Positions 48,004 to 52,389 of a stretch of DNA of 55,906 nucleotides are shown one piece after another (the first letter of the stretch is position 1; every line of letters begins with the position of its first letter). The DNA is taken from positions 1-55,906 of the forward strand of contig NZ_LEKH01000016.1 of NCBI RefSeq assembly GCF_001029505.1, written 5' to 3'. Below the pieces are notes generated by a model that was not told the DNA's origin, did no database searches, and saw nothing but the letters and a program-made list of their open reading frames with translations. Source of the stretch: Rubrobacter aplysinae. GTDB lineage: Bacteria; Actinomycetota; Rubrobacteria; Rubrobacterales; Rubrobacteraceae. Made by a program: the position numbers and the translations under genes.

Positions 48004-48453
48004 CTAGCTCTGGTTGTTCCCAACCTTGACGCTTTGTGGCTCGGAGAGCGTGGCGTAATCCCGGACCGAGATCTCAAGTACCCCGTTCTCCAGGGAAGTC
48101 TCGACGCCGTCCGCCCGCACACCATGCGGCAGCGTCACGCTCCTCCTGAAGTAGCCGAAGCGGCGCTCCCGGGCGTAGTACTCCCCGCTAGTGTCGCGCG
48201 AGCTCTTCTGCCCGGATATCGTGAGAATACCATCCGACAGCGAGAGGTCTATGCCGTCCTCCCTGACTCCGGGAAGGTCGACCAGCATCACCAGGTCCGA
48301 GCCTTCCGAGACCACGTCCAACTCCGGTGTCCAGGCGTCGGCGTGGCCCCGCTCTTTCTGTACCTCCCCCGGATGGGGACCGCTCATCCAGTTCTCCACG
48401 GCCCGGTTGTTCTCGCTTATGCTGTCGAAGAATCCTCTAAACGGGTTCGTCAT
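48004..48453 (-). CDS. Small heat-shock protein Hsp20 (alpha-crystallin family)
   Basis: This 149-residue protein has an N-terminal FRGFFDSISENNRAVENWM region and an alpha-crystallin domain from DVVSEGSDLVMLVDLPGVREDGIDLSLSDGILTISG to FGYFRRSVTLPHGVRADGVETSLENGVLEISVRD. It holds denatured proteins in oligomers. The C-terminal I-x-I anchor is not clear. GGAAGGAG lies 7 bases before the ATG. It is downstream of the ferritin-like 71-residue gene, with a stable hairpin in between, in a unit that starts at a sigma-B-like promoter. Confidence 0.92.
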   Translation of the reverse strand: MTNPFRGFFDSISENNRAVENWMSGPHPGEVQKERGHADAWTPELDVVSEGSDLVMLVDLPGVREDGIDLSLSDGILTISGQKSSRDTSGEYYARERRFGYFRRSVTLPHGVRADGVETSLENGVLEISVRDYATLSEPQSVKVGNNQS

Positions 48454-48552: not shown

Positions 48553-48768
48553 CTAGCGCTGGCCCAGGAGGGACTTCGCCCTCTGCGCCCTCTCGGCGTC
48601 CTGCTGCTGGGACTCCCGGAAGAACTGCGCCAGCTCGGTGTCGCCTTCCTTCTCGGCGTCGTCTATGTACTGGGCGTACGTGTAGCCGCCCTCGGCCGCG
48701 CGATTGAGCACGCTGATGAGGTTGTATACCCGATCGCTGAGGCCGGTGTTATCGGTTCCGCCAACCAT
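48553..48768 (-). CDS. Small ferritin-like helical protein, stress-associated
   Basis: 71 residues forming two helices: LSDRVYNLISVLNRAAEGGYTYAQYIDDAEKEGDTELAQFF and QQDAERAQRAKSLL. The same pattern (VYNLISVL, YIxDAEExGDxELAxFF, ExRRRAExAKxLL) recurs in small proteins of many bacteria related to ferritin-like folds, without a demonstrated function. It is the first gene of the hsp20 unit and has a strong TAAGGAGG ribosome site. Confidence 0.75.
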   Translation of the reverse strand: MVGGTDNTGLSDRVYNLISVLNRAAEGGYTYAQYIDDAEKEGDTELAQFFRESQQQDAERAQRAKSLLGQR

Positions 48769-48804
48769 GTTTCCTCCTTACGAGGTTTGCTTACGAAACC
48801 AAGA

Positions 48805-48830
48805 GTACCCTAGAGTGCGCTTCATTAAAC
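48805..48830 (-). promoter_or_regulatory. Sigma-B-like promoter of the hsp20 unit
   Basis: On the minus strand GTTTAA (48825-48830), a 14-base spacer and GGGTAC (48805-48810) match the sigma-B type GTTTAA-N14-GGGTAT. The spacer holds AGCGCACT three bases from each element. The first gene starts about 37 bases downstream. Confidence 0.6.
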
Positions 48831-48857
48831 CAAAGTGCTCTAAAATTCTTTTCGGCA

Positions 48858-50138
48858 TCATTCCCGGCGGTCTCGTCCGCTTTGCCCGCCGATCTCGCCA
48901 CGGCGGTCTCCCGGGAAGGTCGGCGCAGGCTCGGAACCGGTCTCCGGGGGGCGCTCGGGGCCGCCGTCGCGGGCTTGCGGGGGAGTCTGCGGCGTGCCCC
49001 GGTCCCCTCTCCCGGCCGGTGTGCCGGCCTTCGAGACCGGGGGTTTACGCCACGGCTCGAAGAGCAAGGTCTGTCTCAGGTAGCCGAGGGCGGCGGAGAT
49101 TATGGCTATGGCGGGCAGGGCGAAGAGGGCTCCGACGATGCCGTAGAGGGTGGAGGCGGCCATCACGCCGAAGAGCACCCAAAGGGGATGGACGTTCACG
49201 GAGTCGCCGATCACCTTCGGGACGAGGATGTTGCCCTCTATCTGCTGGGCCACGAGAAAGAGGGCGGCCACCACGAGGGCCTGGACCGGGCTCACGAGCA
49301 ACGCCACCGCGACCGCCGGCACGGCCCCGAGGAATGCCCCGATCACGGGTATAAACTCCATGAGCCCGACCCAGAGGCCGAGCGCTATGGCGTAGCTTCC
49401 GATGGTGAACTGCACTATCGCCCACCCTATGACCCCCATGAGCAGGCACAGGAGGAGCTGACCCTTGATGAACTTGACGAAACGCTGCTCGACCACCTCC
49501 AGCATCTGTACGGTCTGGTCGCGCACGGTCTCCGGCAGCGCCCAGAGCGCCGCGCCCGTCACCCTCTCGCGGTCCACGAGCAGGTAGATGGAGATGATCG
49601 CGAGCAGGAAAAGGTTGAATACCGTGCCGAACACGCCGCCGACGAAGCCGGTGAGCGCCCTGGAGACGGTCTGCCCGGAGGGCGCCGCCTTCTGGGCGCG
49701 GCTCATCAAGGACTGGCGGTCGAGGCTGCCGATCTGATCCCCGAGGTACGGGATGGACCGGGCGCGGTCCACGAGCTGCGTGGCGCCGTCCACCAGGATC
49801 TGGGGGTTGCTGAAGAGGCTCTGTATCTGCCGGACCGCCGGCACGACCAGTGCCAGCCCCGCCACGCCGAGCACCGTCCCCAGTACGGCGAAGACCCCGA
49901 GCACCGCCACGACCCTCGGTACCCTCCGGCCCTCCAGCCGCTTCACGACCGGGTTGAGCACGTAGGCCAGTATCGCCGCCGCGAGGAAGATCAAGAGCAC
50001 CCCCACGAGCTGGCGCACCAGCACCACGAGCAGCAATATGCCGACGGCGAGTGCTATGTACTGCACGTAGTCGGCGATGACCAGCCTGCGCGGACCATCC
50101 TCTTCGTACCTCTCGTGCCTCTCGGACCTCTCGGGCAT
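48858..50138 (-). CDS. AI-2E-family (PerM-type) membrane transporter
   Basis: This 426-residue protein has about eight helices. VIADYVQYIALAVGILLLVVLVRQLVGVLLIFLAAAILAYVLNPVVKRLEGR opens the family, the extracellular-type domain follows (about 90-190), and GVIGWAIVQFTIGSYAIALGLWVGLMEFIPVIGAFLGAVPAV is the signature of AI-2E/PerM proteins. VNVHPLWVLFGVMAAS and GALFALPAIAII complete it. Members export autoinducer-2 or act as Na+/H+ antiporters. A disordered Pro/Gly/Arg-rich tail of about 70 residues is unusual. The N-terminus PERSERHERYEED derives from a 9-bp repeat. It is read from a sigma-B-like promoter. Confidence 0.83.
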   Translation of the reverse strand: MPERSERHERYEEDGPRRLVIADYVQYIALAVGILLLVVLVRQLVGVLLIFLAAAILAYVLNPVVKRLEGRRVPRVVAVLGVFAVLGTVLGVAGLALVVPAVRQIQSLFSNPQILVDGATQLVDRARSIPYLGDQIGSLDRQSLMSRAQKAAPSGQTVSRALTGFVGGVFGTVFNLFLLAIISIYLLVDRERVTGAALWALPETVRDQTVQMLEVVEQRFVKFIKGQLLLCLLMGVIGWAIVQFTIGSYAIALGLWVGLMEFIPVIGAFLGAVPAVAVALLVSPVQALVVAALFLVAQQIEGNILVPKVIGDSVNVHPLWVLFGVMAASTLYGIVGALFALPAIAIISAALGYLRQTLLFEPWRKPPVSKAGTPAGRGDRGTPQTPPQARDGGPERPPETGSEPAPTFPGDRRGEIGGQSGRDRRE

Positions 50139-50154
50139 TACCTTCCTCTCGTAA

Positions 50155-50205
50155 AGTCCCTGCCGTTCGCGCCGGTGTTCAGTCCCTGCCGTTCGCGCCG
50201 GTGTT
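50155..50205. repeat. Exact 25-bp tandem duplication
   Basis: A 25-base segment beginning AGTCCCTGCC and ending GCCGGTGTT occurs at 50155-50179 and again, identically, at 50181-50205. It lies in the leader between the sigma-B-like promoter and the AI-2E-family start. Confidence 0.9.
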
Positions 50206-50210
50206 GCCTC

Positions 50211-50236
50211 TTACCCAAAAGTGCGCTAGAGTACAC
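50211..50236 (-). promoter_or_regulatory. Sigma-B-like promoter of the AI-2E-family gene
   Basis: On the minus strand GTGTAC (50231-50236), a 14-base spacer and GGGTAA (50211-50216). The spacer again has AGCGCACT three bases from each element, identical to the hsp20 promoter. Further AGTRCNCT-type octamers lie on the plus strand at 50220, 50230 and 50240. Confidence 0.55.
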
Positions 50237-50289
50237 TAAAATACTCTCAAGAGCTTAGTCGTAATCGTTTTGTCGTATATCCGTAGGTC

Positions 50290-51102
50290 GTGGCAGGCGG
50301 CGGGAAGGTGGATCGCGTGGACCGGGCTGCCAGAGGGGGCGCATTGCGGGGCGCATTATCGGAGAGCAAGGAGATACTGGAGGTGGGGGAGGTCGCCGCT
50401 TACCTGGGGGTCGGAAACGTCACGGTACACCGCTGGTGCCGGGACGGCCGGCTGCCGTGCTTCAAGGCCGGGCGACTGTGGCGTATCCGGCGCGGGGCGC
50501 TGGAGGAGTTCATGGAGCGTGGCGAGCAGCCCGAGACGCTGGCCGGCAGGCTGAGGTCTTTTATCGAGGTGCCGGACAACGTGCTCGGCATCGCCCAGAG
50601 CGTGGACCTGATGCACCGGCTGGATGCGGCGTTTTTCAAGGTCGGTGAGGCCCGTGGCGGGGTCTTGATCAAGTACCACGCCGGTGCCTCGGGGACCGGC
50701 CTCGAGCGGCTGAAGTCCTCTCTCGAACGGCACGGCTTCGAGGCCCGGAGGCTGGAGGGAGAGGGGCGGTTCCGGATGCTGGCGGACGTGTCCAAGCCGG
50801 GGCAGCGGGCCGAGGAGCTCCAGCGGCTCGCCTCTGAAGAGCCCGTGGACGGACGCTCGGTCTGGGCCGCCTTCAACTGGGAGGAGCGGCTGAGCCTGGA
50901 CGCCTCGCTGGAGCAGCAGAGGTCGCTTACCAGGTTCGTCGAGGGTAGCTCGGTGGTGGTCAAGACCAGCGTGCTCGAGGAGGCGCTCGGGGAGTGGCCG
51001 GACGGTGGTGACCGCCGGGCCCAGCTCCAGCATTCTGGCTCCATATGGCTCTCCGAGGAGGGGATGTCCCTGAGCCGTACCAGCCCCACGCCCCCGGATT
51101 AG
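50290..51102 (+). CDS. Excisionase-type HTH regulator with a MEDS-like sensor domain
   Basis: 270 residues. EILEVGEVAAYLGVGNVTVHRWCRDGRLPCFKAGRLWRIRRGALEEF near residue 35 is a MerR/excisionase-like DNA-binding helix-turn-helix. The rest (about 85-260) resembles the sensory domain of DcmR-type (MEDS) proteins, with VWAAFNWEERLSLDASLEQQRSLTRF and VVVKTSVLEEALGEWP then QHSGSIWLSE. The signal is unknown. GTG at 50290 is listed; a GTG at 50308 is possible. It diverges from the AI-2E-family gene and heads a run of small genes it may control. Confidence 0.7.
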   Translation: MAGGGKVDRVDRAARGGALRGALSESKEILEVGEVAAYLGVGNVTVHRWCRDGRLPCFKAGRLWRIRRGALEEFMERGEQPETLAGRLRSFIEVPDNVLGIAQSVDLMHRLDAAFFKVGEARGGVLIKYHAGASGTGLERLKSSLERHGFEARRLEGEGRFRMLADVSKPGQRAEELQRLASEEPVDGRSVWAAFNWEERLSLDASLEQQRSLTRFVEGSSVVVKTSVLEEALGEWPDGGDRRAQLQHSGSIWLSEEGMSLSRTSPTPPD

Positions 51103-51493: not shown

Positions 51494-51865
51494 ATGTCAG
51501 AAGCGCAGATAAGTACCCAGGACCTCGACAGTACGCTCACGAACCTCGGAAACGGGGTAAGAGAGCTGGTGCTGGATAGGGCTATAGCTGAAGTTTCCGG
51601 CTGGCAGCGTAAGCTGGAAGCCTCCGGCGAGGAGGATCTCGTGGACATATCGCGGGATCTTCTCCAGCTCCGTGAGGAGCTTGACAAGGGTGTCGGCGAC
51701 GGCGGACTGGATACCGGAGCCGTAGGCGAGCTGCTCAACAAGCTCGGCTCCAAGGTCCAGGCCGTGGCGGATAAAAGGGGCACCTCGGCCGGTCCCGGCG
51801 TAGAGGAGAAGCTCAAGGCCCTCGGCGGCCTGCTCTCCAACGAGGCGGCCTCCATCTCCAGCTAG
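51494..51865 (+). CDS. Small acidic helical protein, unknown
   Basis: 123 residues, helical and acidic (TQDLDSTLTNLGNGVRELVLDRAIAEVSGWQRKLEASGEEDLVDISRDLLQLREELDKG). No signal, no membrane helix, no cysteine. The W-Q-R-K-L-E-A centre might be a small fold of its own. A GAAAGGA site precedes the ATG. First of five small genes on this strand. Confidence 0.6.
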   Translation: MSEAQISTQDLDSTLTNLGNGVRELVLDRAIAEVSGWQRKLEASGEEDLVDISRDLLQLREELDKGVGDGGLDTGAVGELLNKLGSKVQAVADKRGTSAGPGVEEKLKALGGLLSNEAASISS

Positions 51866-51999: not shown

Positions 52000-52389
52000 G
52001 TGCAGTATCAGGAGTTTGTGAATCGGGTAAACGAGCAGATACAGACCCGGGCCCCGGGCGACGCCGAGCTCGCCATCCAGGCAACGCTGTCCACCCTCGG
52101 CGAGCGCATAAGCGGCGGAGAGGCGGAGAACCTCGCGGCCCAGTTGCCCGCCGAGCTACAGACACAGCTAGAGTCCGGTAATCAGTCGGAGGAGGCCGAG
52201 CCCTTCTCACTGGACGAGTTCTACCTGAGGGTCGCCGAGCGGGAAGGGGTCTCCTCGCCGGACGCGGCCGTGGAGCACGCTAGCACGGTGATGGAGCAGC
52301 TCACGCGGGCGGTGACCGGCGGCGAGCTCGCGGACATCCAGCGCCAGCTCCCGGAGGAGTTCGAGCCGCTCTTCAACAAGCGGAGCTAA
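52000..52389 (+). CDS. DUF2267 family protein
   Basis: 129 residues. The two halves repeat the DUF2267 pattern: YQEFVNRVNEQIQTRAPGDAELAIQATLSTLGERISGGEAENLAAQLPAELQ and FSLDEFYLRVAEREGVSSPDAAVEHASTVMEQLTRAVTGGELADIQRQLPEEFEPLF. Such proteins occur near stress and DNA-repair genes in actinobacteria and cyanobacteria, but have no proven role. GTG has AAAAGGAG 6 bases before it. Confidence 0.85.
   Translation: MQYQEFVNRVNEQIQTRAPGDAELAIQATLSTLGERISGGEAENLAAQLPAELQTQLESGNQSEEAEPFSLDEFYLRVAEREGVSSPDAAVEHASTVMEQLTRAVTGGELADIQRQLPEEFEPLFNKRS

Follow-up and report, generated by a model that had tools for sequence, protein, structure and literature searches.

The locus and its stress-type promoters

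The window (that is, the whole 56-kb stretch of DNA analysed) contains a minus-strand unit made up of a gene for a 71-aa protein and hsp20, a minus-strand gene for an AI-2E family transporter and, divergent from the latter, a gene for a candidate regulator. Two promoter-like sequences precede the minus-strand units, and each of them lies wholly within an array of 10-bp repeats. The features are as follows.

48004..48453, minus strand: Hsp20 small heat-shock protein (Pfam PF00011, 5e-16)
48553..48768, minus strand: 71-aa protein, first gene after array 1, with homologs in 14 other genomes
48804..48843, plus strand: array 1, units AGTACCCTAG, AGTGCGCTTC, ATTAAACCAA and AGTGCTCTAA
48805..48830, minus strand: predicted promoter 1, GTTTAA-N14-GGGTAC, serving the 71-aa gene and hsp20, wholly within array 1
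48814..48821, minus strand: octamer AGCGCACT, copy 1, in unit 2 of array 1
48858..50138, minus strand: AI-2E family transporter (Pfam PF01594, 7e-59)
50210..50249, plus strand: array 2, units CTTACCCAAA, AGTGCGCTAG, AGTACACTAA and AATACTCTCA, the first unit being degenerate
50211..50236, minus strand: predicted promoter 2, GTGTAC-N14-GGGTAA, serving the AI-2E gene, wholly within array 2
50220..50227, minus strand: octamer AGCGCACT, copy 2, in unit 2 of array 2
50290..51102, plus strand: candidate regulator with an N-terminal HTH_17 and a C-terminal KaiC/RecA-like domain; the true start may be the GTG at 50317

The first-pass annotation had described two minus-strand sites of the form GTKTAM-N3-AGCGCACT-N3-GGGTAM, and both were recovered exactly at the same positions, site 1 (48805-48830) being GTTTAATGAAGCGCACTCTAGGGTAC and site 2 (50211-50236) GTGTACTCTAGCGCACTTTTGGGTAA. 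The full pattern was in excess over shuffled sequence, with two real copies and no match in 100 shuffles. The genome-wide scan which that annotation had proposed found these two sites again but no further one, there being no third copy within three mismatches in the whole 3.19-Mb genome and none in the reversed control. The octamer alone occurred in the window at chance frequency (2 found, 2.0 expected).

The earlier reading of the hexamers as SigB-like promoters stands. In M. smegmatis the consensus for SigF is GTTT-N14-19-GGGTA, and some SigF-dependent promoters have GTGT-N16-GGGTA (PMC4694148), so that both GTTT-N16-GGGTA and GTGT-N16-GGGTA agree with the actinobacterial consensus; site 1 fits it exactly, its -10 end lying 37 nt before the gene, and site 2 corresponds to the GTGT variant. 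A SigBFG sigma factor is encoded in the genome (271 bits against a curated cut-off of 234), and GTTT-N16-18-GGGTAM is enriched, with 19 matches compared to 4 in the reversed control. Ten of the 19 are intergenic, and nine of these end 37-92 nt before a gene on the same strand. The hexamers are credible, if predicted, promoters of the SigB/SigF type. The genes behind GTTT-N16-18-GGGTAM, which form a candidate SigB regulon of this genome (L117-L134), include Mn catalase, DUF892, BON, adenylate kinase, IrrE-like and Zip-like genes. Heat-shock control by HspR, whose HAIR consensus is the inverted repeat CTTGAGT-N7-ACTCAAG, was rejected for the window promoters, as no match was found in the window at up to three mismatches.

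Tandem 10-bp repeats across both promoters

On the plus strand the octamer reads AGTGCGCT, and the repeat goes on from there in strict 10-bp steps. That is, the octamer is one unit of a longer 10-bp direct-repeat feature that was overlooked in the first-pass annotation, and it is this array, not the octamer itself, that would serve as a recognition element. At each site four units of the form AGTRCNCTAR follow one another in tandem on the plus strand; one unit of array 1 is poor, and a weak fifth unit (AATTCTTTTC) extends this array to 48853. Both arrays extend over the SigB/SigF-like promoters from the -35 through the spacer to the -10, and most of the quoted promoter hexamers are in fact pieces of repeat units, the site 1 '-10' (GGGTAC) and the site 2 '-35' (GTGTAC) being repeat units in reverse reading. 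Array 2 sits between the AI-2E gene and the divergent HTH_17 gene, just upstream of the latter. Tandem Repeats Finder did not detect the arrays because the units are too diverged. A separate repeat, a perfect tandem duplication of a 26-bp unit (50155-50205), was seen in the leader between the AI-2E promoter and the start codon.

The arrays were scored with a hold-out unit matrix trained on relatives only, from which the window arrays had been excluded. When four units were scored, arrays 2 and 1 ranked as the top two of the 56-kb window (30.9 and 25.9, respectively), with a best off-site score of 11.6, and the three-unit score of array 2 was 35.4. In 24 million positions simulated at window composition neither score was reached; 3 Mb of an AT-rich intergenic model yielded five scores matching array 1 and none matching array 2. 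The genome itself was also scanned with patterns and with a profile (R1), which at E values up to 10 returned only two matches, array 2 (E 6e-4) and array 1 (E 2.2), and whose matches in relatives were nearly all the regulators' own upstream regions; these results are descriptive because the R1 training set contained those same sequences, that is, the window's own arrays and the relatives' regulator upstream regions. Two-unit pattern scans across genomes, allowing one or two mismatches, were discarded as too unspecific, controls giving about as many hits as there were matches.

Arrays accompany the regulator gene in relatives

Homologs of the candidate regulator, with ~45-63% identity and mostly of full length, are present in most of the same-family genomes searched, often several in each; the named homolog records come from Rubrobacter, Rubrobacteraceae and one Thermomicrobiales metagenome-assembled genome (MAG). 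Autocorrelation of the 120 bp upstream of 35 homologs, a procedure that assumes no motif, revealed a pronounced period (lag 10, z = 13.8; lag 20, z = 9.0) with half-unit signals at lags 5 and 15 and nothing at lags 9 or 11 (z under 2). In 156 regions preceding other genes of these loci, lag 10 gave no signal. An iterative motif search in the homolog upstream regions converged on the unit AGTAcACTAA, the family consensus being AGTACACTAA, and in 34 of the 36 sequences the best array had the same strand as the regulator gene. The arrays adjoin the regulator gene in nearly all relatives, wherever that gene lies. In relatives, though, they often lie upstream of a plausible sigma-A -10 box instead of across a promoter of the SigB type, which means that the overlap seen in the window is no general rule. 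Two HTH classes of the regulators, GKHW/GKRW and the rest, show preferences for the operator variants AGTCAAC and [GA]TAC[AG] (Fisher p 0.009 and 0.025), as would be expected if the protein reads the array; the association is modest and is confounded by shared ancestry, which the Fisher test ignores.

The homolog from the Thermomicrobiales MAG has a three-unit array (AGTGTAACAA, AGTGCTACAA and AGAACACAAC; L081:4814-4843) just upstream, which suggests either inter-phylum transfer of the regulator together with its operator or a binning error. The gene divergent from this homolog encodes a large PAS/GAF histidine kinase.

Gene content around the homologs was also recurrent, with AI-2E transporters in five loci of other genomes, Hsp20 in five, and PRC/DUF2382 proteins, encoded divergently, in three. 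Genome G011 has the regulator on one contig and the 71-aa gene's ortholog on another, and this ortholog bears a four-unit array that scores 34.6 and was outside the matrix training set. In a same-genus genome without the regulator (G001), no array was found at the 71-aa homolog or at the closest hsp20. A further G011 array, away from the regulators of that genome, was noted before a gene judged by eye to be pyruvate oxidase-like (TPP enzyme; G011:C47:3564-3584, L107).

The candidate regulator

The HTH_17 domain of the candidate regulator is well supported (Pfam PF12728, 1e-15, 58 bits against a cut-off of 27). The protein passed the generic excise model TIGR01764 (48.7, cut-off 28.8) and scored 21 bits with NCBIfam HTH_BldC, below the cut-off of 77; it may therefore work like BldC, but it is not a BldC ortholog. 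In searches of the PDB with the family profile, only two matches were obtained, 6AMA and 6AMK, both of them BldC-DNA complexes (E 0.001). Thr27, Arg30 and Trp31 of BldC, which contact DNA (PMC5859096), align with the invariant Thr45, Arg48 and Trp49 of the regulator family, and the flexible specificity residue Lys26 aligns with a variable position.

The AlphaFold model (pLDDT 85) consists of a winged helix followed by a KaiC/RecA-like domain, and the latter resembles FlaH and KaiC in Foldseek (E 6e-7). The Walker A motif is absent from all 30 regulator homologs checked. A MEDS identity of the C-terminal domain was considered and rejected, as there was no Pfam match to PF14417 in this part of the protein, hhalign against the genome's one MEDS protein gave a non-significant E of 0.06, and the fold is KaiC/RecA-like. 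The genome encodes a paralog (G000:C4:77774-78511, L043) that is 50% identical to the regulator and has a weaker array upstream; it stands divergent from a weakly Zip-like membrane protein.

A predicted operator array and its reader

Taken at the level of sequence, the two arrays are very probably operator arrays of the HTH_17 regulator encoded at 50290-51102. The regulator would bind the 10-bp units head to tail through its BldC/Xis-type winged helix, with one protomer per helical turn, that is, per unit, and the directional nature of the repeats is consistent with such head-to-tail oligomers on DNA. On array 2 (50210-50249) it would control its own gene together with that for AI-2E, which is divergent from it, and on array 1 (48804-48843) the small-protein/hsp20 unit. 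Once there, it would probably block the stress promoters sterically, and this repression would be lifted when the C-terminal KaiC/RecA-like domain senses a signal.

The first-pass annotation had proposed a second recognition event in the spacer, by a regulator or by a lineage-specific sigma subclass, and the regulator alternative has gained support, since the octamer proved to be a fragment of a 10-bp array that tracks with the HTH_17 regulator gene. Identical octamers at identical spacing in two promoters, in a genome that does encode a SigBFG sigma factor, could indeed be taken for a lineage-specific addition to the SigB promoter that a sigma subclass recognises. This is nevertheless very improbable, as the octamer occurs in no other SigB-like promoter of the genome, seven 71-aa gene homologs from other genera have retained a GTTT-like/GGGTA promoter that lacks it, and the repeat both runs on beyond the promoter and precedes regulator genes that have no SigB promoter. 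Because the SigB-type promoter occurs without the octamer in these homologs, promoter and array are best seen as two overlapping signals. Even less credible is a chance similarity of AT-rich promoter DNA: although the octamer alone is not above expectation and array 1 includes a weak unit, the lag-10 period, the hold-out ranking, the control regions and the simulations are strong arguments to the contrary, especially for array 2, and chance was rejected.

If the arrays are real operators, another protein might read them, such as the paralog, which is 50% identical, or an unlinked HTH_17 protein, small proteins of this kind (weak matches) being common in these genomes. We consider this improbable, given that the best array match of the genome adjoins this very regulator and that nearly all relatives have an array beside the regulator gene, no matter where this gene lies. 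A more serious contender, albeit still an unlikely one, is that the regulator activates transcription by binding beside the -10, where it would stand in for a -35 element. Several relatives have a TATGAT/TATTAT-like box, a plausible -10 of the regulator's own promoter, ~7-11 bp after the last unit (located by eye), with the array at the place of the -35, a layout that activation would also fit. In the window, however, each array overlies its minus-strand promoter from the -35 through to the -10, where a bound protein would block the polymerase. With such an overlap, repression by the predicted reader is likelier than activation here, and we lean towards repression of the stress promoters as the sign of regulation.

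Comparison with known systems

Direct-repeat binding by the BldC/Xis-type fold is already known. BldC lines up head to tail on direct repeats of 9 bp (PMC5859096), and Xis-type proteins bind direct repeats one helical turn apart, 10-11 bp in the case of phage Apl (PMC7498355). The MerR-like BldC of Streptomyces (whiI and smeA-sffA operators) shares with the candidate regulator the HTH_17-type winged helix and a Thr-x-x-Arg-Trp recognition helix, and its asymmetric head-to-tail binding to runs of varying numbers of direct repeats at regulated promoters is the predicted likeness. BldC, in contrast, is a 68-aa protein with no extra domain, whereas ~190 aa of KaiC-like domain are added here; it reads AATTXXXX(C) in 9-bp repeats as opposed to 10-bp units with the consensus AGTACACTAA, and it has many targets while those of the present regulator seem to be few and for the most part local. 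Excisionase/RDF proteins (phage 186 Apl, Pukovnik Xis, lambda Xis and RdfS) have a related winged-helix domain and operators with direct repeats about one helical turn apart, like the arrays described here, and Apl also represses promoters. The regulator differs from them in its extra C-terminal domain and its linkage to chromosomal stress genes, and no integrase was noticed next to it in an unsystematic look at the stretch examined. The DcmR regulator of Methylorubrum has the motif GATC(C/G)ATAGCCT in both promoters (PMC9320726). It likewise adjoins a divergent target with a shared motif in both promoters, but the motif is another one and DcmR has a MEDS sensory domain, to which the C-terminal domain of the regulator has no significant match. 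As for SigB/SigF stress promoters of Actinobacteria, the window sites resemble them in having GTTT/GTGT-N16-GGGTA at both positions and depart from the consensus, which has no spacer octamer, the octamer of the window belonging to the predicted overlapping operator.

A limited literature search returned nothing relevant on Rubrobacter regulators with direct repeats, and no family combining a KaiC-like domain, a sequence-specific 10-bp operator and stress-promoter overlap. Judged from sequence features, the arrays very probably reveal an undescribed family of regulators and their predicted binding sites, so that at least 30 uncharacterised regulators gain a predicted binding site, binding mode and target genes. 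If true, BldC/Xis-type direct-repeat binding would extend to proteins with a large, possibly sensory domain, and the arrays over stress promoters suggest a local layer of control on general-stress promoters. More tentatively, it is conceivable that a Rubrobacteraceae-centred family combines a filament-forming BldC/Xis-type domain with a KaiC/RecA-like domain lacking Walker A, and that its members assemble on 10-bp arrays as ligand-gated head-to-tail filaments, thereby turning stress promoters of the SigB type on and off.

Further genes were noted around the locus. A small protein with no Pfam match is encoded after the regulator (51494-51865), and its relatives are found near regulator homologs in two other loci (L074 and L075). 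A DUF2267 gene is located nearby (52000-52389), and a gene that appears DUF2267-like by eye (L153:819-1193) directly follows the closest hsp20 in the same-genus genome G001.
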